Source: Gracilaria vermiculophylla
Lineage: Eukaryota > Rhodophyta > Florideophyceae > Gracilariales > Gracilariaceae
DNA length: 64,000 nucleotides
Direction of reading: 5' to 3'
Assembly: GCA_019155205.2 (NCBI GenBank)
Contig: JAHNZQ020000181.1
Location: 3,047,999-3,111,998, forward strand
Shown here: positions 2,873 to 64,000 of the stretch, piece after piece
Position numbering within the stretch: position 1 is the first letter of the stretch
Layout of the letters: every line of letters starts with the position of its first letter
The notes under the pieces: generated by a model
The model's input: the letters and a program-made list of their open reading frames with translations, nothing else
Database searches by the model: none
Told to the model about the DNA's origin: nothing
Position numbers and translations under genes: made by a program

Positions 2873-4532
2873 CAGTATGCCTCCGTCCATGAGAGCACAA
2901 ACGCTCACCCACAACGCAAGAATCAAAAGCGAAAAGAAGAAAAGGACAGAAGAGCAAAAGCCCTGTCGCTTATTCAAAAAGGTGTTAGTGCCTTAAAGGC
3001 GTCTACAAAGACAGGGATCTCCAGAACCACGACTACGCGCATTAAGAAATTCTTTGACACCTCCAACAAGGTCGAGCTCGAAAAGCTGCTTGACCCTGTG
3101 CTTCACCATGCTGGGCAGAAGACAGTCTTATCGCCACACGAAGAAGAACTCGTCGTTAAGCGCGCTTTACACGCCGCCGCGCATGGTTTCGCAGTGGATA
3201 ACACAGTCATGACCACTTTACATGCAAGGATAGCAGGTGATAAATGTAACGGATATGCTAACGGTGTGCCCTCCCCTGACGCCATTCGATCATTTCGAGC
3301 TCGCAACCGGGCCTTGGCGTACGGGGTAGCTGAAAACGTGACCGGGGCACGACTAGCAGCGCAAAACAAGACACATATTGAAAGTTTGAAGTACGCACTG
3401 CAGGAGGTGGAGCAACAACATCCGGGTATACTTGCCGATGCCAGTCGAATTTTGGAATTGGGATGAAACTGCCGTATCCGGAGAATATGGAAGGAAAGTC
3501 AGATGCTATGCTTCGGCGTCTACGCACAGTGGTGGTGCTGGGCGCAGTATCAGAGACGCTGGGAAACATGTGACAGCTGGAATCGCTATTTCGGCTGCGG
3601 GCAACATTGCCCCTCTTTTTGTTGTAGCTTCTGGAAATCGAATCGTTAAGACTTGGCGAGACCCGTTACAGAAGCAGGACTTTACTAATGCACTCGGAGT
3701 ACAACACTGGCTTTGCGAAGATAGCTATTTGCCGCCGGAAACTGCAATCCATGTGACAAAGTCTGGCTCCGTCGACCGCAGTGTAATTGTGAAAATCGCC
3801 GAACATGTAAATGCCCATGCCAGGAAAACCATCTCTTCCGATAAGCACATTTTGCTCTTGGTAGACGGACACAGCTCTAGAAAAGGCTTGGAGTGGATTG
3901 AGACATGTCAGCGATTGAAAATTATAGTCGTGCGTCTTCCCGCAAATACAACCCACATTTTACAGCCTTGCGATCAGCTAGTTAACCGAGCGTTTCAGCG
4001 CACAGTTCGAAAAACTAGAGATGCGTTGTTGGCCATGGCGCACCTCTTGTGGGTTAATACGTCTTACAAAATCAAGGTAGCAGTAGCTGGCCATCAAGCG
4101 ATCATACCAAGCGATGCCAGGATGTCTTTTGTGAAGTGCGGGATGTGGCCAATGGACTTCAGATTCGTTCGCTTCGCTATTTCTTCAAGACAGATCGATA
4201 ACCCTTTAACCGAGCACGTAGATGTAGGTCAGACCTCTGCCCAATCTGAAGCTATGTTGGGCAAGGTCACGGTCGCCAGGAGTCATAATATTGCGCTGGA
4301 GTCTGAAATACATCGCCTTACGGACGGAAGGTACCCCGCCTTTCGAGCTCTTTCCAAGGTTTCTGCTCTTATCCAGACCAAATATAGGGTCAACACGATT
4401 CTCCAGCAGGAGATACGGGCTCCAAAAAGTGCTAATTGTAGTCGTAAGGCTCGTAAAAACGGCGGAGGCATGCAAAAATCCAAGATACTGACGTCGAGGG
4501 GACTTAAAAGGTCGTTTCGGGATGCACAGTAG
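2873..4532 (+). pseudogene. pogo/Fot-like DDE transposase (frameshifted)
   Basis: The first frame (2873-3466) is basic, then encodes a helix-turn-helix-like stretch (KALSLIQKG, then SRTTTRIKKFF), then a second helical region. It has no in-frame ATG after the upstream stop at 2870, so the start codon is lost or lies in another frame. The second frame (3432-4532) carries the catalytic core: NWDET (first Asp), LLLVDGHSSR (second Asp) and LPANTTHILQPCDQ (third Asp). Counting between the second and third aspartates gives 35 residues, so DD35D, closer to Fot/Pot than to pogo proper. All three acidic residues are present. The frames overlap around 3432-3466, so a small indel separates the DNA-binding half from the catalytic half. 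The C-terminal tail is basic. Confidence 0.85.
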
Positions 4533-9663: not shown

Positions 9664-9674
9664 TGCATATAGCT
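9664..9674 (+). promoter_or_regulatory. TATA-like element of the Gyp1-b antisense gene
   Basis: TGCATATAGCT occupies the same place as the conserved GGTATATAACC of Gyp1-c and Gyp1-d. The distance from its first base to the A of the aORF ATG is 101 bp, identical in all three copies. This copy has drifted from the consensus. Confidence 0.55.
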
Positions 9675-9764: not shown

Positions 9765-11647
9765 ATGTCTTCTCTGACTTCGGCGACTACATCTCTTTCG
9801 AATCCTGAGGTGTATCACACCTCGACCGGTGTACCGTTTCGTCCAGGGGAGCATATCGATCATCGCGCCACGCGGATTTTCTTCCCATTCCATGACAGGC
9901 GCGTGAGTCTCCCGTGTCCCGTGGAGGATTAAATTCACCACTTCGGCCCATACCTTCAGGCGATGCGATTCCGCGCCGGACCGGAGGTTGCGTGGAACGA
10001 CCAGAGGCGGAACCGCATGGATCCATATCGCGCTCACTGGCTTCACACTCCAGTACACGGTGACATTGCTCCAACCACGGTGGGACACTGCGATACTCCA
10101 TATCTAAGGTGCGCCGAGGAACGGGAGGTCCAGGCGCGACTCCAGGTACTGCTCCACAAGGAGAGCTTGCACCAGAGAGCGGGGCGACCGGGAAGCATTG
10201 CCAACTGGCGCTCTGCCCTCGCGGTGTTGCCCTTCGATCCTCCATACGATCGCCTCTACTGGCTCAATCGGAATCGATGGGGGACGCACCTTGCGGACGA
10301 GACTCGAGTACGCACAGCTTTTGGGTACTTCTATGGGTGGCATAACACGGAATTCCATGACATGCCTTCTGGGCAGCGTCCGAAGTACTACCTGAAGGTA
10401 AATGACTCCTGGAGGTACCACTGGATATCCCCGCATCTCTGCGTGGCGACGCCCACGACATTCGCGTATCACACCTCCGAGGTCCTGGATCCCCATGACT
10501 CCCTAGGGCGGTTTATCATGTTGTTCGCCTCGACAGAGTTTGCAGTCGGCACCTTGATGGCGTATCTCCAAGCAGCGGACGAAGGCGTAACCTCCTATAC
10601 TCGATGCCGCGACAGCCGCCTCTATTGGGACACGTCGTATCAGCCGACCGCCGGGCGTTTGCTCCCATTGTTGGCGTCCATCATTCAGTTTCTGCGCTCC
10701 TTTGCCATCCAAAACCTGATTAAGGGCACCGCATGGAGTGAATACGAGGCGGAGACGCTGTTGGAGTACAACCTCCGGATGGCGTGGAATGACACGCCGG
10801 GTTTCCTCTGGTACGACTACGGCGAGGACCAGTTCCACCCCATTGTGAGGAGTCCTAATGGAGATGATGACGGGCGAGCATACCCTGCCTCTCCCCGTCT
10901 GGCGCCTTCTCGGGTTCCTCAGGTGCCACGGCTCCGAGTACCCGACTACGACCCCTTCATGGAGAGCCTGGCGCATGATGCGCCCCGTCGGTTACCGGCT
11001 CCGTCCCAGGATATGGGCGCACCTCCTGAGGTGATAACTCCGCGGCCCGCCGCAGTGCCGAGTGCCCCCGCGGTGGTAGCCGCCGTGTCTCCTATGGAAG
11101 AGAACGAGATTGCTCCCGTCCCGGTACTTTCGGCCCCAGTGGTGCAACCTCGACTGTAGAGCGTCCCTGCGCCTATTCCTCGGCCTCGCCTGTGGAGCGT
11201 TCCAGTTCCCGCGCCGCCGTCACCTCCGGTGTCACCAACTCCGTCCTTAGCTTTGCCGACCTCCACTGCGGAGCCTGTGGTATCCCGTCGGGGAGCCCCT
11301 GTTTAGCTAGTCCGGCGTCCGCGGCTCCTTCCGTGGCGGTTGTTGCGCCGTCAACGGAGGTGGCCGCACCGGTTGTACCGTCGGGAGAAGTCTCCTCTGG
11401 GGCTCTGGAGGTTGCCTTTCAGGAGTTGGTGCAGTCGTGCCTGGTGACAGGCCGTCCTGCTCCGGCTTCTCCTATGGAGGCTCTGCGCGAGGCGCGTGCT
11501 TCGGTCGTAGAGCTCCACAAGGCACGGATATACCGGGCTTCGATGGCGGCCCTCAAGGAAAGCCTGTCGGAGTTCTTCGATAGCCAAGCGCTCACGGCAA
11601 AAGCGCGCCTCGAAGCGGAGTATTCAACACGCTTCGGTGACCTGTAG
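9765..11647 (+). pseudogene. Gyp1 antisense gene (aORF), copy b
   Basis: This gene lies inside the retrotransposon on the strand opposite to gag-pol, between the 3' LTR and the end of pol, and is convergent with pol. I do not recognise the protein. The ATG at 9765 aligns with those of Gyp1-c and Gyp1-d. The N-terminal region contains EVYHTSTG and FFPFHDRRVSLPCPVED, then a TAA (9930-9932) where copy c has TAC. From 9963 a 398-codon open stretch follows, rich in Trp, Tyr, His and Arg (NDSWRYHWISPHLCVATPT; YHTSEVLDPHDSLGRF; TSYTRCRDSRLYWDTSYQPT). A Pro/Ala/Val-rich linker follows to a TAG at 11157-11159. A C-terminal helical region (KESLSEFFDSQALTAKARLE) is encoded in another frame (11192-11647). 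Intact length would be roughly 600 residues. No membrane segment or catalytic motif is evident. It could be a captured host gene, a DNA- or RNA-binding accessory protein, or an envelope-like third ORF. Confidence 0.75.
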
Positions 11648-11664
11648 GTTACAGGACCATGACA

Positions 11665-11697
11665 AATAAAATATCCTTCGCGTGGAGCAGAAGCTCC
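11665..11697 (+). terminator. aORF 3' signal: AATAAA plus small hairpin
   Basis: AATAAA (11665-11670) follows the aORF stop by 17 bp. A hairpin GGAGC-AGAA-GCTCC lies at 11684-11697. Both are present in the same order in Gyp1-d (61087-61092 and 61060-61073, minus strand), although the protein-coding ends have diverged. The hairpin sits between the two convergent genes and could serve either strand. Confidence 0.5.
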
Positions 11698-11890
11698 ATG
11701 AACGGTAGTTCCAATATGACGTAGGCCGTGCCCACGTGCTCAAAAACACGAAGTGTTGCCGTGGGAGCATGCGAAAAGCGAGCAACAGCATTCTGGAGGC
11801 TTAAAAGATAACTCCAGGTAGAGGATAGACGGCTGAGACGAAAAACATCTCCGGTTGAGGGCCCCCTCCCCCTTTCCTAAACGGTAGCGC

Positions 11891-12304
11891 CTATATGGAG
11901 CGGCGTTTCTCGTCTAGATTAGCGTGGTATCGCCTAAGGACGTTCTCCAGGATATGTTCCGGAGGTTCTTCCGTGTCTTCCTTCGAGTTGTACTTATACC
12001 AGCGGACGTGGTACAGTACTCCTGCACGGGTTTGTCGATGGGAGACGATATGGTCCACTGCGTTGAGGATGTCACCTTCAGGGGTCAGGATGGCATCGGG
12101 AGTTTCCGGTAATGGTTCAACGAAAGCAGTGATGCGGTTCCCGGTATCCCGTGAAGTCGTCGTGCCTGGGATGGTCGGGTGTGAAAGTTCCGCGCGTTGT
12201 TCCTGAGGTGGGATGACGTGCATTCCTGAAAGGCTGGGCGTTGGGACTTTCATCACCCTATCACGGGAGACGACATCTCTGAGCCCGTTAACCTCAATGT
12301 CCAC
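11891..12304 (-). pseudogene. Gyp1-b chromodomain end of pol
   Basis: This is the C-terminal end of the integrase polyprotein. It contains an EVNGLRDVVSRDRV segment and a chromodomain: AVDHIVSHRQ, then VLYHVRWYKY, then EEPPEHILENVLRRYH. These match the chromo fold pattern of an aromatic cage start, a YxVKW-like strand and a C-terminal helix. In chromoviruses this domain directs integration to particular chromatin. The frame is separated from the upstream integrase by a small shift near 12304-12356. The stop lies about 195 bp from the AATAAA of the convergent aORF. Confidence 0.75.
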
Positions 12305-14969: not shown

Positions 14970-16454
14970 TCACATGTCCTCAAAAGCGGATTGCATCTCC
15001 ACTATCCTATGGCGATACCCTTCGAACTCTTCGCCAATTTGAAGCTTCTCCAGCCAGGTAGCAGGATTCACTTCCTCTGCAGCCGTTGAAGTCGCTTCAG
15101 CCTCCATGGTGGGGATTGCATCGCGATCCACGAGGTCTTCCATACGAGGAAGAGACGCCATTCCTGCAGGGGCGGGTAATGCCAATCCGACGTCAGTACC
15201 TATTTGGAGGCGTAACCGTGACTCCTTCAGGTTGGCGAGCACAACCCTGAAGGGAATGTTCGGTATTATTTCCATAACGCCGTTCGCCATCATGGAGCGC
15301 TGCTTCGTCGTCAGGTGTGTACTTCCCTGTAGGAATGAAAGGCCAGATGCAGAGTTCTGCACACAAACTTCGGCCTGACTCCTCGCGGGTATTTCAACGC
15401 TCTTCACCACTCGGAGCTTATTTGACTGCGTCTCCTTTAGAAGGTTAACCACGTGACGCGCGTTGGCGTCCGGTCCTAGAGATGCGGACAAAGTACCTAC
15501 AAGGGCGGAGTGGTGAAACGTCCCCTTCCACAGGCGTTGGTAGATTGCACGTACATACCGATCAACAAAGAAAGTGCCCAATATGCACTGTGCGGCCAAG
15601 TTGGTCGCTACGAGGAACCGCACTTTCACCTGTAAGGAGCCCAACCGGAGGTACAAGGGGGTTTCGTCGAGGATGGTCAGTGCTCGACGCGACGCCTCGC
15701 GCACCGTTAGGAGCTCGCCAGTCCTCAAGGAGCCGAGAGCAGACCGCGGGAGAACTTCAGCGTGCACCAGATTGGGCCCAGATCCGGTATCGAGGATAGC
15801 GTGCCCCGTGGTGGAGGCAAGCGGGGAACATACGATAGAGGCGAATAACTTGTAATTCTCATGGCGGAGTGTGCAAACAGAATCCACAAAGGTGTCGAAT
15901 GGGTCCAATGGGATTGGGGGGCCCGCCGATTCTGCGTCGGCGGCGCAGACGGCCTCTCCCCCTTTCCTAAAGGCGACCCCCGTGGAGCTGAGGCTCGATG
16001 GTAAAGAGCCAGGCAAAGCCTCTACGCGTGGCTCTGAGGGTTTTCCTGGTTGGAAAGGGGCTGAGTCCCTGTCAAGGGCGGCGTCTGCGGTTGTGCATCG
16101 CGATGCGACGTGTTCCCTTGAGGTGGAACCGGCTTGGGCACCGGCACCTGCGTTTTGGGTGCAAGAGACAGTGGGACAGGTTGCACTCCCGGTGGAGCAC
16201 GGTAACCGTAGTTTCCTTGAGGGGAGCGGATTTCGCGATTCGCGGTTCGATAACTTCCGCTCTCTGTTGGTGTGTCCTTCAGATCCTGGAAGGTTTTCTC
16301 TCGTTCCTGCAGAATGTCTGCCCTCATTTCTGGGGTGATAGTCGTACAGTGTACGGGTTCTCGTGACAGGAAAATTCTGCAAAGCGGTGGGAAGCCTCGA
16401 GGGTTCGCGAATCGGACGCTTCTGTAGGGCCTTGCCGAGGCGTATTTCAATCAC
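14970..16454 (-). pseudogene. Gyp1-b protease and start of pol (494 codons open)
   Basis: This is the longest open frame of the element. Its first part runs in the alternative frame over the end of gag. The aspartic protease follows, with the catalytic AILDTGSGPNLVHAEV motif intact, then a linker containing LGSLQVKVRFLVATNLAAQ and FRVVLANLKESRLRLQIG. Aspartic proteases of Gypsy elements process the Gag-Pol polyprotein inside the virus-like particle. The frame is -1 relative to gag, the same relation as in Gyp1-c and Gyp1-d. A stop at 14970 separates it from RT. Confidence 0.75.
16022..16452 (-). pseudogene. Gyp1-b gag C-terminal fragment
   Basis: The frame starts inside gag at KYASARPYRSVRF and runs to a TAG at 16022. 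It contains CRIFLSREPVHC, where the other copies show a short C-x2-C-x6-H-C motif; the second cysteine is Phe in this copy. The tail is Pro/Gln-rich (QPQTPPLTGTQPLSNQENP). It overlaps the protease frame by about 430 bp. The 5' part is lost by truncation. Confidence 0.7.
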
Positions 16455-17869: not shown

Positions 17870-17880
17870 GGTATATAACC
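17870..17880 (+). promoter_or_regulatory. TATA box of the Gyp1-c antisense gene
   Basis: GGTATATAACC is identical at all 11 bases to the element in Gyp1-d (63113-63123, minus). It starts 101 bp before the aORF ATG, the same spacing as in copies b and d. Confidence 0.7.
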
Positions 17881-17970: not shown

Positions 17971-18475
17971 ATGACCTCTCCAGCCCCGGCTCCAACTTCT
18001 TTGTCCATGCTTCATGTGTATCACACCTCCACCGCAGCGCCATTTCGGTCGAGGAAGCACTTCGACCATCGTGCTACGCGGGTCTTCGTGCCGTTCCATG
18101 ACAGATGCGTCAGTCTCCCTTGCGTCTTGAAGGACTACATTCATCATTTTGGACCGTACCTTCAGGCAATGAGGTTCCGCGGCGTAACGGAGATCGCTTG
18201 GAATGACCAAAAGCGGAACCGGTGGGACGCATTTCGTGCTTTTTGGCTCCAAATTCCGGTGCATGGTGACCACGCTCCGACCACCGGGGGGCATTGCGAC
18301 GCTTTCTACCTAAGTTGTGCCGAAGAGCACGAGATACAGAATCGACTTCAACTACCCCTACACAAGGAAAGCTCATATCAGCAAGCGGGTCAGGCCAGAA
18401 ACACCGCTGATGGACGCTCCGCCCGTGCAGTGTGGCCCTTTGATCCCCCTTACGATTGACTCTACTGGCTCAGTC
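17971..18475 (+). pseudogene. Gyp1 antisense gene (aORF), copy c, 3'-deleted
   Basis: The ATG at 17971 aligns with the starts in copies b and d, although the frame is open upstream to 17500 without conserved residues. It encodes HVYHTSTAAPFRSRKHFDHR, VFVPFHDRCVSLPC, then IHHFGPYLQAMRFRG without the stop seen in copy b, WNDQKRNRWDAF and WPFDPPYD before a TGA at 18457-18459. Past that stop a few more codons match copy b (LYWLSRNR). The sequence then jumps into antisense integrase because of the internal deletion. This copy shows that the b stop at 9930 is a late mutation. Confidence 0.75.
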
Positions 18476-18489
18476 GCAACCGATAGGGG

Positions 18490-24655: not shown

Positions 24656-25150
24656 TGTTAGGATTTACATTGTTTTATGCTTTTCTTATATAAATCATGA
24701 GCAATAGACTCGATATTTTATGGTTTACGTAGCCTAGATGCGTTCCTTGTGATATTGCAGTTTGATTCGATGTGCTGTTTGCCCTAAACAGGCTTTACAA
24801 CCACGTTTGACAATCCATGTAATCATGCAATGTTTGAAGTCATAAGCATTACAGGAACCTATTGTCACTCTTGTCCTCAATGTAAGCATCCGAATCGTGT
24901 CCACGACGGAATGTTCTAGAAGCATCTTGCGAAGGACAACCGTCCCCTGAAGGACATTCGTTTTGGCTTTGCATAGCTGGCAATAAGATGTTTCATAACT
25001 AGTGCATCTAAAGGGGTACCGTAGAAATCATTTATTGTGGACTCGTTTTCGAAGGTCTGATTCTCTATATAAACCCTGGTCGACCCGCCGATTTCTACTC
25101 GGCTGGTCACCATCGTTCACGTTCTCAATCATTGACCCAGTGTTCTGAAT
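24656..25150 (+). repeat. Gyp2 5' LTR
   Basis: 495 bp, beginning TGTTAGGATT. It contains the promoter TATA (CTATATAAA, 25065-25073). Its end aligns with that of the 3' LTR. Just inside, TGGTAGCATCGCAAG (25152-25166) is the candidate primer binding site, two bases after the LTR. Confidence 0.9.
25065..25111 (+). promoter_or_regulatory. Gyp2 LTR TATA box and downstream hairpin
   Basis: CTATATAAA is followed by CCTGGTCGACCCGCCGA, a short spacer TTTCTAC and TCGGCTGGTC. The arms pair except for one base. In the 3' LTR the same 10-bp stem is perfect (31838-31847 with 31855-31864). The hairpin lies about where transcription should start. Confidence 0.6.
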
Positions 25151-29559: not shown

Positions 29560-30226
29560 GAGATAACCACGATATTCCCGTTGCAGGTCATACGGGATTC
29601 AAAAAGACGTGGAAACGTGTTTAAAAGCTATTTACTGGGAGAATCTTAAGACTGATGTACACCACTACACGATAAACTGTCATAAGTGCCAAGAAACAAT
29701 GTCTTCTACCCAAAAGCCCCAAGGATATCTTCAACCTCTAGATCGACCGACAAAGAAATGGTCCCACATCACTATGGACTGGATCATCCCTTTGAAAACT
29801 AAGAAGAACGGCAACAGTGCTGTATATGTTGTGTTGGATCGCTTTTCAAAAATGATTCGCATCATCCCGACAAACAAGATTGTTACAGCAGTAAAAAGAG
29901 CCAGACTATTTGTACAGAATATTTACCGTCACCACGGACTACCCGATGTAATCATATCTGATCGAGATTCCACTTTCATGAGCAAGTTTTGGAAAGAGAT
30001 TTTCCGAATACTTCAAATATCTTTGCGACCTTCCCCAGCATATCATCCGCAGACAGATGGCCACACAGAAGTTGTCAATAAAAATATAGAAGAAATGATT
30101 AGATGCTTTGTTAATCACCGCCAGTCAAATTGGGATGACCATTTGGTAGAATTTGAAGTCGCTTATAATTCTTTCATTCATGCCACAACCTCCTTCATGC
30201 CGTTTTACTTGACATATGGGGAATAG
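29560..30226 (+). pseudogene. Gyp2 integrase core
   Basis: The zinc region has NHDIPVAGHTGF and NCHKCQET, an HHCC motif. The DDE core reads HITMDWIIPL (Asp), DVIISDRDSTFMSKFW (Asp) and YHPQTDGHTEVVNKNIEEM (Glu). All three catalytic residues are present. A stop after TWKRV separates the zinc region, and a stop follows LTYGE at the end. Confidence 0.9.
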
Positions 30227-31411: not shown

Positions 31412-31906
31412 TGTTGGGATTTACATTGTTTTATGCTTTTATTATATGAATCATGAGTAATAGACTTGGTATTTTATGGTTTACGTAGCCTAGATGCGTT
31501 CCTTGTGATATTGCAGTTTGATTCGATGTGCTGTTTTCCCTAAACAGGCTTTACAGCCACGTTTGACAATCCATGTCATAGTGCAATGTTTGAAGTCATA
31601 AGCATTACAGGAACCTATAGCCACTCTTGTCCTCAATGTGAGCATCCGAATCGTATCCACGACGGAATGTTCTAGAAGCATCTTGCGAAGGACAACCGTC
31701 CCCTGAAAGAAATTCGTTTTGGATTTGCAGAGCTGGCAATAAGATGTTTCATAACTAGTGCATCTAAAGGGGTATCGTAGAAATCATTTATTGTGGACTC
31801 GTTTTCGAAGGTCTGATTCTCTATATAAACCCTGGTCGACCAGCCGATTTCTACTCGGCTGGTCACCATCGTTCACGTTCTCAGCCATTGACCCAGTGTT
31901 CTAACA
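31412..31906 (+). repeat. Gyp2 3' LTR
   Basis: 495 bp, preceded by a purine tract GGGGGAAGCGA. It contains CTATATAAA and, directly after, the perfect palindrome CTGGTCGACCAG (31832-31843), which overlaps a perfect 10-bp stem hairpin (31838-31864). Confidence 0.9.
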
Positions 31907-41347: not shown

Positions 41348-44300
41348 TCACGGCGTCAAGTTCGTCGTTGCGCCGCCCCCGCCGCGCTCGGCATCACCCT
41401 CCGCCCCCACCGCCGCCCCGGCCGCTCCCGTCCCTTCCGCCGCCTCCGTCGCTCCCGCCGCTTCCGCCGCTCCCGCCGTCTTCGCCGCCCCCGCCGTCGT
41501 TCCTGACTGCTGTGCCGCCCCTGCCCCCGCGCCCGACGCCCCTGCCGCTCCTGTCGCCCCTGCCGCTCCTGTCGCCCCTGCCGCTTTGGCCGCCCCAGCC
41601 ACCCCCGCCGCGCTCTGCCATTGCTCGTCCACCAGGTACACCGTCCCACGCCCGTACACATCGCGCTCCACGAATGTCGCGTCCACGTCGATGGGCACCG
41701 CCGCCGCCGAAGCTGCCGCCAGCCGCGCCGCGACCATCCACGCCCCCATAACCGCCGCGCCCACCAGCACCACCATCAGCAGCACCATCCCCACCACCTG
41801 CATCACCAGCGTCAGCAGCCCCTCCAGCGAGAACACCCCGCCCGGCCACGCCCACCGCGTCGCCACCGTCAACACCCCCGTCGTCGAAAGCGTCACCCTG
41901 GCCGCCCAGTACTGCGCCTCCGCCCCGCCCCTCTCGATATCCGTGCTTATGTTGCCGAACACGGGCGCATACAGCGCCCGCGACGCTTCCTCGCCCCACG
42001 TCTTCCGCGGTCGCAACAGCAGCCCCTGAGGCACCTGATCTTCCGCTGTGCCCTCCGCCACGTCCGCCACCTCCCGTCCGATTGGGATCCGCGCCCCGTA
42101 GCAGTCCTTGATGTCCAGCGTCGCGTCCCGCAATCGATTGTCGCGCATCTCGCCCACCACCATTCCGAATAACCCATCCGTCAGAGTCACGTGCTGCCGC
42201 AGTCGGGACAGGTACACATAGTCCGGACTCTTCACCACCGCAAAGTACAACTTCTTCACCGAGTTTTCGTACAGACCTTTGCACCACGAAAACTCCACGG
42301 TCTGCTCCGCCCCGACATCCACCGACAGACTCAACCCCTGTTCCGAGTTGCAAAAGTGCGCCACTTTCATGCGGACCTCGCTTAATTGGCCTTGCGTTGG
42401 ATTCTCGTACGCCGCCGCTGTGCTCAAGTTTGAACTCTGCCGAAAAGCCTGCAATCTCATCTGTAACCCACCTCTCCCCTTCGCGCTCACACCGGTGCGC
42501 ACCTCCTCCACGCATCCGCACGGGCACTTCTTTAACACAGCCAGCATGATCTGTTCATTCATCACTTCGTAAACGTCTAACCAAATTCCAATGATTTCCG
42601 TCTCGTTGACCGCGGTGGCCTGACGAAGCCTCTGCCTCGAGCTGCCTTCAGAGTAGGAGGCCAGGATCAACTCTGGTGTGAGATCGTAGAAATCCAACAA
42701 GTCCTGCAGCTGCTGCAACGCAGCAGTGTCCGGTGTTCGTTGCACAGCGTTGATCGTGATGTTCACCAAAAAGTACAGCGTTTCCGTGCTGTATGTGATG
42801 CCGAGGTCCGGCGTTAGACTGGCCAGAGCCGCCGCCGTGCGCACGTACCCCGCACTCTGTATTGCGTTGGGCACCGAATTGCCAGCAATCTGGTTCAGAC
42901 CCTCCGTGAAGTTGGCGAGCGCCTCGGAGTCAAAGGAGGATGTGCTCCCTCCGGCAGACAGGATGAACTTCACCATGTCCGTTCCAACCTGATGATAATC
43001 AGAATGGTCACCGGCAAGAAAAGCGTCTTCGGCATCGACGGCAAACCCAGAGAGATCCGCATCAACGTCGCTAGTGCTCGCAACGATGATGTTCCCTCCA
43101 TTCGTTGAAGCAAGCAAAGTAAAACCGAGCGAGTCGTATACGTCACAGCGCACACTGTAATTACCCGCAGTTCCAAGCTGGAAATTCACAAACTCCGTGC
43201 CTTGACACCCTCCCACACAGCTTTCAAAGCCAAACTCGTCCGTCAACAGGAAGAAGAACTTGAAGTCCCCGTTATAATTTGCGTACGCAGACAAAGTAAA
43301 CGTGTCGTTTGTAGTCCCAAAATCTCGGAGCAGCTTGCTGAAGGTCACAGTCGGTCGCTCAACTGTTTTCAGTGTTATGATTTGCTCGTTCACGCTGAAA
43401 CCTGCACGGAACGTCCTGATCAAAAACGCATACTCGGTATTTGGCGATAACACATTTGCTTTGATTCCTAAAGAATCTCGTCCAGGTTCCGCTCCCGCAG
43501 TGAAGTATCCAGCAAAAGTCAACAAATTTTCGTCGGTAGCAAGAAGAGTTTGTGACTGAGAGGCCGGTAGGAGCGCTTGGTATGACCAAGTTGTTTCATT
43601 GGTTTCGGAGATCGGCGTTATCACAACATCTTCATAGTATTTGACATTTGACAGATCCAGTAGAGTAGAGAGGTTGTTGCTGACCGCAATATTTGAAAGA
43701 GACTCAAAGGCTTGTGGTCTGTTTTCAACAAGAATCAATGTTTGTATCACAACGTCCGAATTTCGTTCAAGCAGAGCCCCAGTGGCATTCTGCGAAGTTT
43801 TTGACACTTGGAGGGAGTATTCTATGTACATCGGACCGGACATGTTTTGCAAAGCTTCAAACGCGCTAGAAAGAACAGTAAACCCAATGTTAGTTAGCCC
43901 TTCTTCAGGCATTAGCTCCGTTTCACATTGTTCCGAAGAATCCATGGCGGAATTCCAGCTATATCGGCACGACCATAGATAGCGCAAACCTTCGGAATTA
44001 TCGCCAGAAAGTACATCTGGATCACGTGAAGCAGAAGCGGTCATCAGAAAATTTTGAGCAGAGGACACCAACTGCGATGCTTCTCCACCATTTATCTGAG
44101 CCAGAAGCTCCGCGGGACGGATCACAACGGTTGTCGAATCAGACGCCATTATTTCCGGCTGATCCGTGAAGTAGGCACGAAGGGAAAGCGGGAAAGATCC
44201 GTAGTCCATCGCGGATTGAGGTATATGAAATTCGCGGCCGAGAAGAGTGGGGCCCACTTCATCTCTCGGAGCTGTGGTGTTCAAATAAGAAAACTGATAA

Positions 44301-47017
44301 GCACGGCTCCGGTACTCCCACACAAATGTCATGGCCGTAGAATTGATCTCGAGTTCCGGATCCGAACACCCAGGAAGCCCAATGATTGATGGAACTGTCA
44401 GAGAAACATTTGGACTCGAAAACGATCTAGTCCGTGGATCGATTATTCGTACACTGATCGCCTGCGCAGTATGTTGAACCAAAGTTAGGTTGGTTTCAGC
44501 AGATTGCGAATCAGATTGGACCACCACTCGAAGCACATACGATTCATTCTGCGTTTGAAATACAGAGAAGGGAACAAGCACTGCGTCTGAGTCTGTAGTG
44601 ATTGAAGTAGATGACAGGACGTCTGTGACCCCATCTGGAGCGATTAGCGTCCATGCGTAAGTCACATTCAAAACTCTCAACCCTGATGAAATAAATGCGC
44701 GAAAAAGGCCGTCACTACACAGGCCCAAACGATATTGGCCAGTCGCAGAATCAAAATTTCCTCCGCTGCCTGAAATCGAAACTCGTGCGTTGATCTCTTC
44801 ATAAACGAAATATACGGTATTGGAAGTCAGGGAACCAACAGTTACGACCACTGGCTGAGAGTAAGACTGACCAACTTCAGCTAATGGAGGAGTTAAGAAT
44901 TGCACTTCACTGGTGTTGTAGAAGACAATCTCAGCTCTATCGATGGTCGTGGCGCCTACTAGAATAGACGAAGAAGAAGGGTCAAAATTGACGAACTGGC
45001 CGGTGAGTGTGACTAATGTTCCTCCCTCTTCCGTGCCGGTATTCGGTGAAATTGCGCTAATAAGGACAGGTGAGTCATAGAAGAACTGAAGTGGGTTGGA
45101 CGCGGTGCCGTCAATGTGAACCGTGACCTCGTAGGTGTAGACAGAAACTTCATTCAAACTATCCTGCGAGGGTGTGACAAAAGTTATGGCCGTCGAATTA
45201 GCAGATTGAATCAAAGATGAGTCGATCTTTGTGGAACCAAAATATATTCCAGAATTCTGCACAGATGCGTCAAAGTCAAAGAACTGCCCCAACAAGGTTA
45301 CCTGGGTGCCCCCTCCAGCAGGCCCGCGTGAAGGTGTCATTGATTCCAGCTTTACCACCGGTTCGTATGTGAACGTCACTCCGTTAGAATTGATGCCACC
45401 AACTTCCACTGTAACGGTTTGTTCAAAGTTGGTGCCACTGGTTTTTGGGGGTGTTGTGAAAGTTATGCTCGAGAAACTAATGTTAGATATTAATGAAGAA
45501 TTGATCACAACTCCGTCGAAGAAAACTTCCACAGTCGATAAGTTAAAGTTAGGGAACTCTCCCACTAGTGTGACCTCCGTGCCTCCAGCTTCTGGCCCTG
45601 AAAGAGGCGTGATGCTGTCGATAACGACTGTCTCAACAAATGAAAATAGATATGAAGGATTTGTCTCATCTACCCCGAGAAGGACTTGCCCAGAAGGTTT
45701 CTGGGTAAAGAACATCCATGGAAGATCTGTTCCAACACCTGCAGGTAGATTGAAAAGAATGGAAACTGTGCCATTCTCATTCAGCTGAATAGTATCCGTA
45801 TCAATTGTAGCGTCCTGTGAGCCTTGTGTAAAATTAATGGACAAGGAATATGTCCAGGTCAACAAAACATTTGGGTCCTTCGGCAAATTGGAAATTGTGA
45901 GGACAACAGTGTCCCCGCCAGTGCTTCTGAATGGTCCTTGTGGACTTATGTGCTGCACAAGTGGTGGAACTTCACCAACCACGGAGATATTGAAGAAAGT
46001 CGAATATCCGTCAGCTTCGAGGTCACTTCCCTGCACGATCTCGTCCCACAAAAAAGACGTGATCATAGATCCATTTCTGTGCTTATTGAAATCGAATCCG
46101 AACTTGGGTCCAACATATTCGCCTTCAAGATCGTTGACCGAGAAACTCATTCCACAAGGTGCTGAGAGCTGAACATCTTCCCCATCAAAATTTCCTGTCA
46201 CAGGAGGGCATGAATTCTCGTGAGTAACGAGAGTTGTTGATCCACTCGATACCACTTCTATGCTCGAGAGGGGAACAGATATGGAAGAATTTGTTGAGCT
46301 GCCATCGTAGAACTGTATAAACACCTCGAAGTTTTGATTTTGGTTGGACATGATGTCCTCGGTAGTCAGAAGGAAGGGAAAATTTTCACCGCCATATAAA
46401 GTTCTCAGCCCGTTTTCTGTTCTGAAGAACGAAATTCCAACCAAGATTATTTGTATTGACTGCGAAGTTGCTACTGTTTCCGATGAGGAGGTGTTAACCG
46501 CTCGTATCTCGAAAGAAGAGGTACCTGTCCATTTGTTAAAATCGAAGAGCGCTGTCACGTTGTATGCAAGGAAGCCCCTAGAATTGTCTTCAACACTAAA
46601 AAATGAAACGTCCTCCTTGGTGAAAAGATTTGTATCTTCGATCTGCGCTTCGAAAGTGTAGTTGGCCAGAGTAGTGCCTGGTTCTGGGATGAATATGTAG
46701 GATATTTCAGTCTCCGCTGTCCCGTTGATGAGAGCTACAATAGCTTCAGTTTCTGTGAAGGCGGGGATAAAGGTTGGAGCTTGTTCAATCTGTCTTTCAA
46801 GATAAGTTTCGCGGAATCTGTTTGGCTCCTCACACAAATCAGATCGGTGGACATGCGAAGGAGAGAAAAAGCCCGAAGATGAGGACGGTAAAAAAGGTCT
46901 GTTGTGTTGCGATGGAAGCGAGTATGTTTCTGAACCTGTCACAAGCCACATGAAAACAAAAGCAGTAATGAAAGCTGTGCGAGAGTGTCCGGTCACCGGG
47001 AATGCTGTTGGAAACAT
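41348..47017 (-). CDS. Large IPT/TIG- and REJ-like type I membrane protein (1889 aa)
   Basis: I set the start at the ATG at 47017. The frame opens 30 codons earlier without ATG, and the 47017 Met gives a good signal peptide (hydrophobic TAFITAFVFMWLVTG). The ectodomain is rich in N-glycosylation sequons. After an N-terminal region come four IPT/TIG immunoglobulin-like repeats (about residues 350-740) with openings ITPLSGPEAGGTEVTL, MTPSRGPAGGGTQVTL and ISPNTGTEEGGTLVTL. A REJ-like region follows (about 970-1315; SRDPDVLSGD, LRYLWSCRYSW, FGFESCVGGCQGTEF). A Cys-containing stretch has KKCPCGC near 1500. One membrane helix lies at about 1734-1768. The cytoplasmic tail is short and ends in Ala/Gly/Thr repeats. 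The architecture resembles polycystin-1/fibrocystin ectodomains, which act in adhesion or sensing. Here there is no polycystin channel domain. It is intact and intron-free. Confidence 0.88.
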   Translation of the reverse strand: MFPTAFPVTGHSRTAFITAFVFMWLVTGSETYSLPSQHNRPFLPSSSSGFFSPSHVHRSDLCEEPNRFRETYLERQIEQAPTFIPAFTETEAIVALINGTAETEISYIFIPEPGTTLANYTFEAQIEDTNLFTKEDVSFFSVEDNSRGFLAYNVTALFDFNKWTGTSSFEIRAVNTSSSETVATSQSIQIILVGISFFRTENGLRTLYGGENFPFLLTTEDIMSNQNQNFEVFIQFYDGSSTNSSISVPLSSIEVVSSGSTTLVTHENSCPPVTGNFDGEDVQLSAPCGMSFSVNDLEGEYVGPKFGFDFNKHRNGSMITSFLWDEIVQGSDLEADGYSTFFNISVVGEVPPLVQHISPQGPFRSTGGDTVVLTISNLPKDPNVLLTWTYSLSINFTQGSQDATIDTDTIQLNENGTVSILFNLPAGVGTDLPWMFFTQKPSGQVLLGVDETNPSYLFSFVETVVIDSITPLSGPEAGGTEVTLVGEFPNFNLSTVEVFFDGVVINSSLISNISFSSITFTTPPKTSGTNFEQTVTVEVGGINSNGVTFTYEPVVKLESMTPSRGPAGGGTQVTLLGQFFDFDASVQNSGIYFGSTKIDSSLIQSANSTAITFVTPSQDSLNEVSVYTYEVTVHIDGTASNPLQFFYDSPVLISAISPNTGTEEGGTLVTLTGQFVNFDPSSSSILVGATTIDRAEIVFYNTSEVQFLTPPLAEVGQSYSQPVVVTVGSLTSNTVYFVYEEINARVSISGSGGNFDSATGQYRLGLCSDGLFRAFISSGLRVLNVTYAWTLIAPDGVTDVLSSTSITTDSDAVLVPFSVFQTQNESYVLRVVVQSDSQSAETNLTLVQHTAQAISVRIIDPRTRSFSSPNVSLTVPSIIGLPGCSDPELEINSTAMTFVWEYRSRAYQFSYLNTTAPRDEVGPTLLGREFHIPQSAMDYGSFPLSLRAYFTDQPEIMASDSTTVVIRPAELLAQINGGEASQLVSSAQNFLMTASASRDPDVLSGDNSEGLRYLWSCRYSWNSAMDSSEQCETELMPEEGLTNIGFTVLSSAFEALQNMSGPMYIEYSLQVSKTSQNATGALLERNSDVVIQTLILVENRPQAFESLSNIAVSNNLSTLLDLSNVKYYEDVVITPISETNETTWSYQALLPASQSQTLLATDENLLTFAGYFTAGAEPGRDSLGIKANVLSPNTEYAFLIRTFRAGFSVNEQIITLKTVERPTVTFSKLLRDFGTTNDTFTLSAYANYNGDFKFFFLLTDEFGFESCVGGCQGTEFVNFQLGTAGNYSVRCDVYDSLGFTLLASTNGGNIIVASTSDVDADLSGFAVDAEDAFLAGDHSDYHQVGTDMVKFILSAGGSTSSFDSEALANFTEGLNQIAGNSVPNAIQSAGYVRTAAALASLTPDLGITYSTETLYFLVNITINAVQRTPDTAALQQLQDLLDFYDLTPELILASYSEGSSRQRLRQATAVNETEIIGIWLDVYEVMNEQIMLAVLKKCPCGCVEEVRTGVSAKGRGGLQMRLQAFRQSSNLSTAAAYENPTQGQLSEVRMKVAHFCNSEQGLSLSVDVGAEQTVEFSWCKGLYENSVKKLYFAVVKSPDYVYLSRLRQHVTLTDGLFGMVVGEMRDNRLRDATLDIKDCYGARIPIGREVADVAEGTAEDQVPQGLLLRPRKTWGEEASRALYAPVFGNISTDIERGGAEAQYWAARVTLSTTGVLTVATRWAWPGGVFSLEGLLTLVMQVVGMVLLMVVLVGAAVMGAWMVAARLAAASAAAVPIDVDATFVERDVYGRGTVYLVDEQWQSAAGVAGAAKAAGATGAAGATGAAGASGAGAGAAQQSGTTAGAAKTAGAAEAAGATEAAEGTGAAGAAVGAEGDAERGGGGATTNLTP

Positions 47018-53024: not shown

Positions 53025-53761
53025 CGTGGCGCGGTGAGATAAAATAACCCGCTCTGCCGACAACTTTCCGCAAATTCATTGGTAAACAGACGTACAGAGG
53101 ACTCATGTCCACATAGAATTCCTACGAAAAACCATGGGCAAAAGTTGATTTGCCAGCTACAGTACATGTTTGTTATGTTAACTGGGATGTGGCTACAAGT
53201 TATGCATCTCAATTGGTGTCTCAAAAGCAGCTTCTTCCGCATTTTAGATATTAAGAGACTTTATTGCAGTAATAGATCTTTCTAAGCATCTAGATCCTCG
53301 TCAACATCGGCGCAAATTTTGATACCGGACATCGGTAGACGGGCTTCTTCTCCGGGTTTGGTACTTTAAAAACTACTGTAAAAATGTGAGATTTTCAAGG
53401 TTGGCTTTAAGAACATCAAAATTGATAATTGAACCTGGCAACGTAGTCGAATTCTCTTCTATTAAGGTCTATGATTGCGCTTATATCGGCGCCTATCATA
53501 ATGAGGCAAGCTCAGCTGTGAACGGTTGTTCTGACAGTTCGGAGAGTATCTGCAAACGAGGCCATAGATTTCGGATGTTGTAAAATTGGTTACTTACCCA
53601 TAAAAAGAATCTTAGCTAGCAGTTTTGGACACAATACAGCGCTACACGCATCGAGGATATAGTTCAAAGATGAAAACGAAATAAAAGGAGAAGTTTAAAT
53701 TTTTGGGCATAGTTCCAAATTAATAAAAATTGGTTTCATAAGAGAGCGCTGTTACAGTAAA
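53025..53761. other. Spacer, no gene seen
   Basis: AT-rich between two Gyp1 LTRs, with only short frames lacking motifs. Confidence 0.5.
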
Positions 53762-54315
53762 TGTAGTACATTGGTTCCTAAGGTAGTATGGTGGTGTGGC
53801 TTTATGGCGTGATTTTCCTATGGAGGGCACGTATTTTATTAGCTGATCCACGTGGTGCATAAGTCGTCCCGCGTGCACTACATAATCCTCAGGTGACGGT
53901 AGAATTTATATTTATTTTAGTTAATTTGTGCGGGCAATTACTTCAGTACTGAGACCTGCCGGGGTGGGCTCCCGGCTGGATCTTTAATCTGCCGGTTGAG
54001 CTCCACCTTTGGGGAAGTAAACGCAAGCACCCTTGAGTCTTCATCTACTTTTCCGGTTGGAGACTCTCGTCGATCATCCTCAGTTTTCTAAGCCACCGAT
54101 TCCCAGGTCGCATCATAGCAGCGCCTGTAGGAGCATTTTCTGCCCAGTGAACTTCCCACTCCGCTTGGTGTTTGCGGATCCCCTTTAAAAATTCCTTCGG
54201 CTCGCGGCAGCGACTACCGGAGACCACCCTTAGGAACTCGCGCCTTTGAAGTCAACAAAAACTCCTAACGGACGTTGTGCTCTACTACCTCGAGAGGAGG
54301 GCTGACAGTACCACA
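53762..54315 (+). repeat. Gyp1-d 5' LTR
   Basis: 554 bp, from TGTAGTAC to GTACCACA. It contains an AT-rich TTTATATTTATTTTAG stretch that may be the promoter. The left flank is GTAAA; the partner lies beyond the window. Confidence 0.9.
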
Positions 54316-54317
54316 AC

Positions 54318-54336
54318 TGGTCTCCCGACTTAGAAG
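54318..54336 (+). promoter_or_regulatory. Gyp1-d primer binding site (candidate)
   Basis: TGGTCTCCCGACTTAGAAG starts two bases after the LTR and is identical to the site in Gyp1-a. Its complement ends in ACCA as a tRNA 3' end should. It is not the initiator-Met site common in chromoviruses, and I cannot assign the tRNA. Confidence 0.6.
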
Positions 54337-54566
54337 GTCACAGTTCCTAAAGGATTCGCACAAGTTGCGGCAGAACCGTGTTTCTAGTTTGCAACGACCA
54401 ACCCCAACAGTGGAATTCTTCCTAAAGATGATTCGGAAGTGGAAGAAAATCACCCCCGACCTACTCCTCTATGGACCCCTCAGAACCCCAAATAGAACCC
54501 CTCCTACAGGACCCTTAAACAACCGACTCCATTGGTGGGCGCAGCCCGCGCAGCGCTCCTAAGGAA

Positions 54567-56727: not shown

Positions 56728-57395
56728 AGGCTCCGCGTGGCTCCTTACCATCGAGCCCAGGCTCCACGAAGGTCGCCTTTAGGAAAGAGGGAGACGCCGT
56801 CTGCTCGTCGGTTGACTGTGAATCGGTAGGCCCCCCAATCTAGTTGGATCCATTCGACGGCTTTGAGGATTATGTTGGCACGCTCCGCCGTGAGACTTAC
56901 GAAGGACTCGCCTGTATCAGATGTTCCGCGCTGGCCTCTATCACGGTGCGGGTTATCCTCGACTCCAAAGCTGGCCCCAATCTGGCGCACACCGATGTGC
57001 TTCTGCGGTCTGCTCCAGGCTCCTTCTGGACTGGCAAGCTACCAACGGTGCGCGATGCGTCGCGTCGAGCATTGAGCATTCTTGGCGCAATACCCCTGTA
57101 TCTCCGTCTGGGCTCCTTACAGGTGAAGGTGTGGTTCCTCGTGGCAACCAACGTGGCCGCACAATGCATATTGGGCACTTCCTTTGTGGATCGATATGTA
57201 CGTGCAATCTACCCACGCCTGCGGAAGGTGACATTTCACGACTCTGCCCCTGTAGGTATCGTGTCCACATTTTCGGGACCAGACGCCAACGCGCGCCACG
57301 TGGGTAGTCTTCCAAAAAAGACGCAGTCGAATAAGCTCCGGGTGGTGAAGAGTATCGAAATACCCGCGAGGAGTCCGGCAGAAGTTTGGGTGTAG
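56496..57395 (+). pseudogene. Gyp1-d protease region
   Basis: The frame runs from the gag overlap, through one stop before LDPFDGFEDYVGTL, to the protease motif VILDSKAGPNLAHTDV. Copy b has DTGSG at this place, so the catalytic Asp is kept but the DTG triplet is broken. The linker QVKVWFLVATNVAAQCILGT follows. A TAG at 57393-57395 ends the frame. Confidence 0.75.
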
Positions 57396-60645: not shown

Positions 60646-60867
60646 TTGCTGGAGGTTCCAGACGCCTACGTGACCACTGAAGGTGATATTCTCTACGCGG
60701 TGGATAATATCGTCTCTCACCGACAAACCACCGCGGGGATACTGTACCGCGTGCACTGGTACGAATACCCCTCAAAAAACGACACGAAAGAACCACCAGA
60801 ACACATCCCGGAGAACTCCATTAGCAGATACCAAGCCAGTCCGGTGCGGAAGCGCCTCTCCACATAG
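60646..60867 (+). pseudogene. Gyp1-d chromodomain
   Basis: AVDNIVSHRQTTAGILYRVH, then WYEYPSKNDTKEPPEHIPEN, then SRYQ reproduces the chromodomain of Gyp1-b. The stop TAG at 60865-60867 follows, about 190-220 bp from the convergent aORF end. Confidence 0.78.
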
Positions 60868-61059
60868 GCGCTTCCGTTTAGGAAAGGGGGAGGGCGCCCT
60901 TAGCCAGAGCTGTTTTTCGTCTCCGCTCTGAAACCCCCACCTAAAGTTCTCTTTTTCGCCTACAGGACGCCATTGCACGCTTTTCCCATGCTCTTGCGGC
61001 TTCACTTAGTATGGCTGAGCGCGCAAGCATGGCCTACTTTTATTGCAACTACAGTTCAC

Positions 61060-61092
61060 GGAGCTTCTGCTCCAACTTAAGGATCTTTTATT
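61060..61092 (-). terminator. aORF 3' signal in Gyp1-d: AATAAA plus hairpin
   Basis: On the minus strand AATAAA (61092-61087) is followed by GGAGC-AGAA-GCTCC (61073-61060). The order and sequences are the same as in Gyp1-b, although the aORF stop itself is mutated here and the frame runs to 61077. Confidence 0.5.
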
Positions 61093-63022
61093 CCGCCGCT
61101 CCCGGGAGCTACCCCCCATCGCCAGGGTCCTTTCACCTTCAGGGCACCGAATCGCGTCGTGTACCCTGCGTCGAGGCGAGTTTTTGCCGTGAGCGCTTGG
61201 CTCTCGAAGAACTCCGCCATTTTTTCCTTGGTGGCCACCGTCGAGGCATGGTCCACCCGGTCCTTGTGGGGATCTGAGACCAAGGCACGTGCCTCGCGCA
61301 GAGCATCTACATAAAAATCCGGGGCAGGACGGCCCCTTACCAGGCACGCGTGCACCAACGTCTAGAATGCAGCACCCAGAGCCCCAGAGAACAACCCGCC
61401 CGATGGTGCAACCGAAGCGGCCGCCTCCGTTGGCGGAACAACAACCGCCACGGATGGAACCACGGACGGCAGTCCGGCAAGGACAGGGGCCTCCGAAGGG
61501 ATTCTGCAGGCACCGCCGTGGAGGTCTGCAGAGCCAAGGACGGAGTTGGCGACACCAAAGGTGACAAAGGTCCGGGAAACGGAACGCTCCGCAGGCGAGG
61601 ATGAAGAACAGGCGCAGGGACGATCCACAGTCGGAGTTGCACCACCGGAGCCGAGGCCGCCGGGACAGGAGTAATCTCGACCACTTCCATAGGAGACTCG
61701 GCGGCCACCACTGCTGGAGGATCCGGCATTACGGCGGGGCGCGGCGTTATGAACGCAGGAGGGGCACCCATATCCTGGGACGGAGCCGGGAACCGACGGA
61801 GCGGGCGAGTCGCTAGGCTCTCAATTAAAGGTTCATAGTCGGGAACTCGTACTGGTAGCACCTGAGTGACCGCAGAAGGCGCAAAACGGGGTAGGGACGG
61901 GTAGGCTCGCCTGTCATCGACTCCATTGGGATTCTTCACGATATGTTGGAACATATCTACGCCGTAATCATACCAGAAGATGCACGGCGTATCGTTACAT
62001 GCCACCTGCAGGTTGTAATTCAGCAGCTTTTCCGCCTTGGACCCGCTCCACGTGGTGCCTTTCCTCAGATTCTGAATTCCGTAAGAGCGCAGGACCCGGA
62101 TAGTCAACGCCGATCAGGGAAGCAAACTTCCGGCGGTCGGCTGATACGAAGAATCCCAGTAGAGCCGACCGTCTCGGCACCGAGTATATGAAATGAAGCT
62201 TTCGTCCGCTGCTTGGAGATACGCCATCAGGAGACCGACCGCGAACTCCGTAGAGGCCATCAACATGACGAAACGCCCTAAGGAGTCATGGGGGTCTAGA
62301 ACTTCCGAGGTGTGGTACGCAAAGGTAATAGTTGTCGCAACGCAAAGGTGGTGCAGGGATTCCCAGTGGTCCCTCCAAGAGTCGTTCACCTACAGATAGT
62401 ACTCTGGACGTTTCTCGGAGGGCATTTCGTGGAATTCCGTGTTATTCGAACCATGGAAGTACTTGAAAGCGGTACGTGCTCCTGTCTCATCCGCCAAGTG
62501 CGTCCCCTGACGATTTTCGTTGAGACAATAGAGGCGATCGAATAAGGGATCGAAGGGCAAGACCACGTGGGTTGAGTGTCCATCAGCAATTTTTTCGGGC
62601 CGCCCCGATCGCGGATGCGAGCTCTCTTTCTGAAGGAGTACTCAGACTCGCGCCTGAAGCTCCCGCTCTTCGGCGCACCTAAAGTGAGGAGTATCACAAT
62701 GTCCCACCGTTGTTAGAGGGTTGTCACCGTGCACCAGAGTGTGGAGCTAGTGAGCGCGATTGGCGTCCGCCCAGGTCCGCTTCTAGTCGTTCCAAGCAAC
62801 CTCCGGTACGGCGCGGAATCGCATCGCCTAGAGGTACGGTCCGAAATGGTGGATGTTGTCCTCCACGGGGCACGGGATACTGACGCGCTTTTCGTGGAAT
62901 GGAACAAAGACCCGCATGGCACGATGGCCGAAGTGCCTCTCTGGGCGAGATAGTGCACCGGTAGAGGTGTGATACACCTCGGAATTGGACGGAGACGTAC
63001 GCGCCTGAGTTGAAGAAGTCAT
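61077..63022 (-). pseudogene. Gyp1 antisense gene (aORF), copy d
   Basis: The ATG at 63022 aligns with copies b and c. The N-terminus reads SEVYHTSTGALSRPERHFGH and FVPFHEKRVSIPCPVED, then IHHFGPYL and a stop. The middle, with further stops, keeps NDSWRDHW, LCVATTITFAYHTSEVLDPH and YTRCRDGRLYWDSSYQPTAG. A long open stretch (62107-61337) covers IFWYDYGVDMFQHIVKNPNG and the Pro/Ala/Val-rich linker. The C-terminal helical region (61358-61077; KEKMAEFFESQALTAKTRLD) is in a different frame from the middle, as in copy b. No known domain recognised. Confidence 0.75.
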
Positions 63023-63112
63023 GCCGAAGGTGTATTTAGCTGGATGAATGGCGACTGAACATGTCGAAGCACCTGAAGAGAGTGATTTGACGCCATTTGG
63101 GGAGCAGCTCTC

Positions 63113-63123
63113 GGTTATATACC
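63113..63123 (-). promoter_or_regulatory. TATA box of the Gyp1-d antisense gene
   Basis: Minus-strand GGTATATAACC, identical to Gyp1-c, starts 101 bp before the ATG at 63022. Confidence 0.7.
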
Positions 63124-63729: not shown

Positions 63730-63743
63730 CAGGAAAGAGGGTA
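63730..63743 (+). promoter_or_regulatory. Gyp1-d polypurine tract
   Basis: CAGGAAAGAGGGTA directly precedes the 3' LTR. It is the likely plus-strand DNA primer, similar to the tract before the 3' LTR of Gyp1-c. Confidence 0.6.
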
Positions 63744-64000
63744 TGTAGTACATTGGGTCCTAAGGTAATATGATGGTATGGCTCTGTGGCGTGATATTCC
63801 TAAGGAGATCTCTTATTTTATTAACTGAGCCACCTGGTGCAGAGGTTGTCACGCGTGCGCTACAGTATCCTTAAAAACGGTAGAATTTATATTTATTTTA
63901 ATTACTTTGTGCCGGTTATTACTACTGTAGTGATACCTCCCGAGGCAGGCTCCCGGCTTGATACTTAATCTGGCGCTCGAGCTGCACCTCTGGGGAAGTG
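63744..64000 (+). repeat. Gyp1-d 3' LTR, cut by the window edge
   Basis: The first 257 bp of the LTR, starting TGTAGTACATTGGG, closely similar to 53762 onward. Confidence 0.9.

Follow-up and report, generated by a model that had tools for sequence, protein, structure and literature searches.

The window analysed here, 64,000 nt of Gracilaria vermiculophylla contig JAHNZQ020000181.1 (positions 3,047,999 to 3,111,998 of the forward strand), holds three diverged copies, b, c and d, of Gyp1, a Ty3/Gypsy long terminal repeat (LTR) retrotransposon. Gyp1 carries a further open reading frame (ORF) on the strand opposite to its gag and pol genes, in the interval that separates pol from the 3' LTR; it is hereafter called the antisense ORF (aORF). 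The preliminary description of this DNA had placed a protein gene in this position in the three window copies, and the genome searched (44.8 Mb in 27 contigs, of which C4 includes the window) bears it out, with at least 104 scored aORF places among 726 first-look candidates. In keeping with a red-algal host, this genome gives 10 matches to light-harvesting genes, for which the best solved structures include light-harvesting chains of entry 7y5e, from the red alga Porphyridium, and 11 matches to phycobilisome linkers. In one Gyp1 copy the reverse transcriptase (RT), RNase H and integrase domains (PF00078, PF17917, PF17921, PF00665) lie within a single 799-aa open frame, in the domain order of the Ty3 type by profile search, and the pol C-terminus of copy b adds a chromodomain (PF00385, above the cut-off); by this domain content Gyp1 is a chromovirus, that is, a Ty3/Gypsy element with a chromodomain. 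A tblastn search found the C-terminal region of pol that includes the chromodomain in 40 rows, two of which belong to copy b. RT, integrase and chromodomain pieces are recognised in copy b, which is truncated on the gag side, while copy d, which extends from its 5' LTR at 53760 beyond the window end, shows RT by profile and the chromodomain region by tblastn. Copy c, split by another LTR element, has a gag-like match under its cut-off (E 0.0056), and a profile built from the aORF found no match in this gag-like piece.

At least one Gyp1 copy has an uninterrupted frame of 627 codons from ATG to TAG. The flanks of the aORF were examined in 39 copies, 37 of which could be aligned at the ATG (2 dropped) and 36 used for the downstream signals (3 dropped). 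Of the 37 aligned copies, 33 retain the ATG, the TAG is retained in 28 of 33, and the start codons originally assigned to the window copies, at 63022 (minus strand), 17971 and 9765 (both plus strand), are correct; in copy b the start lies about 0.7 kb to the inside of the 3' LTR. Pol and the aORF are arranged tail to tail, with a stop-to-stop gap of 240-244 bp in 22 rows (copy b appearing twice among them), 265-270 bp in 7 and other lengths in 9, 38 of the 40 rows having been measured. A stop interrupts the matched stretch in 92 of the 104 scored places, the other 12 having none, and a search at the DNA level gave 45 matching rows from 40 scored candidates (of 538).

Integrase genes were scored in 131 places (of 1506 candidates), and 47 of these adjoin an aORF that is either one of the at least 104 places above or one of 12 places from another search; in all 47 pairs the two lie on opposite strands. 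The remaining 84 could be read as many family members without the aORF, an interpretation that we dropped because aORF sequence is present in each of the six that were fetched, nearly whole in three and partial, beside runs of N or gaps, in the other three. The six were picked by hand, and all but one stood in the upper part of the list. Absence from most members of the family, which had been set beforehand as the observation that would speak against an independent gene, is thus not what we find (6/6).

Evidence for a protein-coding gene comes from codon-level selection. Over 25 copies and 300 pairs (5 of 30 loci were dropped for runs of N), the pairwise ratio of nonsynonymous to synonymous substitutions (dN/dS) is 0.32 in the aORF frame, while the other five frames give 1.14, 1.40, 1.05, 1.45 and, for the mirror frame on the sense strand, 0.40. 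The low mirror value would be expected if the true gene were the sense frame, for instance an env-like ORF that follows pol, with the aORF as its shadow, but the aORF frame has the lower ratio in every third of the gene, stops amount to 0.34% in it as against 3.21% in the mirror frame (22 copies), and the public homologues described below read in the aORF direction, so that we consider this assignment extremely improbable. After the removal of poorly aligned 60-nt blocks, which make up 11% of the pol blocks and 1% of the aORF blocks, dN/dS is 0.32 for the aORF (95% interval 0.28-0.36) and 0.36 for pol (0.33-0.40) in the same 22 copies, one of 23 pol pieces having been dropped. This comparison with pol had been proposed as a check in the preliminary description, and the aORF value is not near 1. 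Judged by these ratios, the aORF has been under purifying selection about as strong as that on pol. Residues 1-400 have a ratio of 0.24 (0.20-0.28) and are more constrained than integrase, the opposite order being found in 0 of 500 bootstraps.

The reading-frame signal of selection ends at the TAG. An ORF running beyond it, into a coiled coil over the downstream hairpin, was considered and rejected, since the six frames there have dN/dS values of 0.69-0.90 and the gap is near-constant. The aORF and pol distances between copies are correlated (Mantel r 0.63, with none of 2000 permutations as high; 22 copies); the aORF moves along with the element.

The three window copies all have broken frames (stops, indels or a deletion), and this state, together with the stops in 92 of the 104 places and a mean between-copy aORF distance of 0.13, could mean that the aORF is a fossil only, a formerly useful gene carried passively in dead copies and no longer expressed. 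We regard this as unlikely, as at least one copy retains an uninterrupted frame and the measured selection averages in the dead time after insertion, so that the constraint on the moving lineage would be stronger than the value measured.

Upstream of the gene, the 11-mer GGTATATAACC is the same in copies c and d and has drifted in copy b, in each case 101 bp before the ATG, as had been described. Within the window its exact form occurs only at 63113-63123 (minus strand) and 17870-17880 (plus strand). These are also the only 2 of the 37 aligned copies that carry it; most others have a TGCATATA-type form, and the TATA core is found at -97 to -94 in 28 of 37. Downstream, an AATAAA lies no more than 70 nt past the stop in 25 of 36 copies, compared with an average of 0.14 copies for seven other downstream windows. 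The original claim of a conserved promoter and 3' end holds for the presence and place of the TATA core and the AATAAA, and is weaker for the exact 11-mer and for conservation, which exceeds that of the flanks or of the gap at neither site. The GGAGC-AGAA-GCTCC hairpin, which had been described as kept after the gene, fares worse: it is exact in 10 of 36 copies and has all five pairs intact in 17, and its inner pair is lost in 15 (C-A in 13, C-T in 2) without compensation, hence it is not a maintained structure. The conserved ATG and stop, the TATA-like and AATAAA sites, and the gap that keeps the aORF clear of pol make a self-contained transcription unit plausible, and the aORF would probably be transcribed independently.

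An antisense transcript of this kind would be fully complementary to the genomic RNA, and the aORF strand might work as RNA, pairing with the genomic RNA and damping the element through self-limiting double-stranded RNA (dsRNA), with the protein secondary. A dsRNA role is discussed for aORF-3R transcripts in PMC7264820. Selection on codons at a dN/dS of 0.32 would be needless for such a role, conservation is not raised at the TATA and AATAAA sites, and the hairpin has not been maintained; we therefore find an RNA function very unlikely.

The protein has no recognised family in Pfam, NCBIfam or PDB, in agreement with the preliminary description; two matches in the PDB profile search were at chance level (E 0.74 and 0.76). 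Among 5.8 billion proteins we found three relatives, P0001 (39% identity, 95% coverage), P0002 (38%, 85%) and P0003 (46%, 38%). Searching with alignment A1 returned only P0003, and a search with P0002 added only P0004, which was discarded as a probable assembly chimera, a bacterial DnaA N-terminus being fused in it to the C-terminal part of P0001. A scan of viral_contigs gave 16 pattern matches and zero confirmed relatives. The aORF protein may begin with some 400 residues rich in W and Y, followed by a proline-rich linker and, at the C-terminus, a helical part. In P0001 and P0002 the C-terminus is a basic tail that resembles a nuclear localization signal (NLS).

In copies b and d a polypurine tract (PPT), TTTAGGAAAGGGGGAG, follows the pol stop at a distance of about 10 nt. 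This tract, PPT2, has at most 3 mismatches in 35 of 45 copies, 17 of them exact, and tracts of the same type recur at the 3' LTR border (PPT3, again with no more than 3 mismatches, in 24 of 46 rows) and in the gag/pol region of copies b (exact) and d (1 mismatch; PPT1). The 14-base core of the tract has 273 exact matches in the genome and 0 when the pattern is read backwards; among the first 100 of the 273, 31 are at the PPT2 position, 18 at PPT3 and 11 at PPT1, and 40 are without an assigned position. Beyond the aORF stop, conservation is highest in 16-nt windows that overlap the purine core of PPT2 and extend to the pol stop, while the G-run of PPT2 is near the mean. We infer that PPT2 marks either an older 3' end or an additional plus-strand start, and that the aORF module sits between PPT2 and the present 3' tract; the tracts are possibly multiple plus-strand start sites.

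The position of the module between two copies of one polypurine tract, as if inserted beside an older 3' end, would also suit a captured cellular gene that turned into an accessory gene and brought its molecular activity from a host. Such an origin seems possible though doubtful: when P0002 was used to score the genome, each of the 68 places obtained (of 515 candidates) had 30-39% identity to it, with no closer separate gene and no single-copy relative in the host, and the protein matches no family, a picture that an ancient capture could also leave. The coordinates of the aORF and its surroundings in the window copies are given in Table 1.

Table 1. Features of the Gyp1 copies in the window.
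Feature	Copy	Position	Strand	Remarks
aORF	d	61137..63022	-	Decayed (stops and indels); AAG at the aligned stop position
TATA-like site	d	63113..63123	-	101 bp upstream of the ATG
AATAAA after the aORF	d	61087..61092	-	
GGAGC-AGAA-GCTCC inverted repeat	d	61060..61073	-	Not maintained among copies
pol stop codon, past the chromodomain region	d	60865..60867	+	269 bp from the aORF stop position
PPT2 (internal polypurine tract), directly after the pol stop	d	60877..60892	+	
PPT1 (polypurine tract, gag/pol region)	d	56778..56793	+	1 mismatch
5' LTR	d	53760..54351	+	
3' LTR start	d	63740..64000	+	Leaves the window; imperfect PPT3 just inside the element
aORF	b	9765..11647	+	Stops at codons 56 and 465, net indel; TAG at 11645-11647
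TATA-like site	b	9664..9674	+	Drifted form
AATAAA	b	11665..11670	+	17 nt past the stop
pol C-terminus with chromodomain	b	11891..12253	-	PF00385, E 5.8e-8; pol stop 243 bp from the aORF stop
PPT2	b	11866..11881	-	
PPT1	b	15956..15971	-	Exact
aORF	c	17971..18484	+	Truncated; a deletion fuses the aORF to pol sequence
TATA-like site	c	17870..17880	+	11-mer as in copy d

A direct repeat of 491 bp, 95% identical (24656-25146 and 31412-31902), with an integrase piece between its two arms (29699-30223), is a second LTR element within copy c, apparently younger than Gyp1. Outside the window, at 64826-78210 of contig C1, three integrase copies on one strand follow each other with a spacing of about 6.24 kb, which the spacing of the polypurine tract matches, as if one element unit were repeated in tandem. 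The window also contains an uninterrupted ORF of 1889 aa at 41348-47017 (minus strand) with REJ and three IPT/TIG domain stretches, apparently a host gene, and a 364-aa ORF at 3438-4532 (plus strand) that matches the DDE_1 endonuclease PF03184 (E 6.9e-11) and is probably a piece of a DNA transposon.

The explanation that we favour, and hold to be likely, is that a red-algal chromovirus has in the aORF a genuine accessory gene, which codes for a protein, has its own transcript and works in the manner of Grande gene23 and the Retand aORFs, with no kinship to them detected. In this proposal the host polymerase would start transcription of the aORF at the TATA-like site, about 100 bp before the ATG, and polyadenylation would take place near the AATAAA, ahead of pol; with its own start, and ended before pol, aORF expression would be independent of the 5' LTR. 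The protein would act in the nucleus, regulating or assisting the element, by analogy with what has been proposed for Grande gene23 and the Retand aORFs; this is the more tentative part of the proposal. The module probably joined the element later, behind an older 3' end of which PPT2 is the mark. More tentatively still, the aORF may represent a new family of accessory proteins that a red-algal chromovirus acquired as a self-contained antisense cassette between two plus-strand primers, PPT2 after pol and PPT3 at the LTR. Plus-strand DNA might then also begin at the internal tracts, the cassette being copied as a segment of its own, and the invention would be independent of the plant Grande and Retand lineages.

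Several observations weigh against the favoured explanation. The last 227 residues of the protein (401-627) are under weak constraint, with a dN/dS of 0.52 (0.42-0.63), and the difference between the aORF and pol is not significant after filtering, the aORF ratio equalling or exceeding that of pol in 6.6% of bootstraps. The wider contrast in the unfiltered data, 0.32 for the aORF versus 0.49 for pol, comes largely from misaligned blocks, which also explain why RT seemed unconstrained in the version based on second positions and 4-fold sites. Profile searches of Pfam and NCBIfam assign the protein to no family, and neither the AlphaFold model of the whole 627-aa frame nor that of residues 1-430 is usable (mean pLDDT, the confidence score of the model, 33.6 and 31.2). 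The uninterrupted copy, which shares its TAG with most copies, is without the basic tail of P0001 and P0002. As for the signals, 40 of 257 upstream 4-mer windows, the TATA core itself included, are conserved at least equally; the block from -100 to -91 has a conservation of 0.80 against an upstream mean of 0.83, and the AATAAA block shows no excess at 0.88 against a gap mean of 0.86. Since neither site is better conserved than its flanks, the separate promoter is best described as putative. For PPT2, too, conservation rises only modestly above that of the neighbouring sequence.

The layout itself is known from other elements. According to PMC7264820 and PMC11963269, gene23 of Grande, a maize Ty3/Gypsy element, is reported to have its own promoter and a nuclear protein. 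The Gyp1 aORF shares with gene23 the aORF-3R layout, in which an accessory ORF runs antisense in the interval from pol to the 3' LTR, and differs in its red-algal host, in the presence of a chromodomain and in a promoter that is here putative, the likeness being one of layout. Of the features of an aORF-3R it has this antisense position, the occurrence in most copies (by sampling) and a conservation like that of the other proteins of the element; the promoter and transcript of its own, shown for Grande, are putative here. In Retand, a non-chromovirus found in flowering plants only, antisense ORFs bearing TRP28 are reported for 97% of clusters (PMC11963269). Unlike these, the aORF proteins of Gyp1 have no match to TRP28 (PF04195) at E values up to 10, in a search whose filters drop most weak matches; PF04195 has no match above the cut-off in the genome either (best E 0.383), and Gyp1 is set apart from the non-chromoviruses by the chromodomain of its pol. 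Boty of Botrytis and Sclerotinia, whose antisense ORF is named in PMC7264820, differs by its fungal host and is set beside Gyp1 by description only. PMC11963269 also names HBZ of human T-cell leukaemia virus type 1 (HTLV-1) and related antisense genes of retroviruses, which offer a parallel in working, again by description only, as a nuclear accessory protein from the minus strand. The antisense promoter of HTLV lies inside the 3' LTR (PMC7264820), whereas the TATA-like site of Gyp1 is outside it.

In the titles and opening abstract lines of the first papers listed, drawn mostly from non-subscription literature, we found no antisense accessory gene in a red alga or in a chromovirus. What Gyp1 adds to a known layout is a new protein family, a new host and a new element lineage. 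Both PMC7264820 and PMC11963269 call the function of the antisense accessory genes of LTR retrotransposons unknown. The distance of a red alga from the flowering plants, the different element lineage and a protein that is under selection and without family suggest that this layout was invented more than once, and that it does something for the element. With many copies, a clear dN/dS signal and a module bounded by polypurine tracts, its origin and function are testable in Gyp1.
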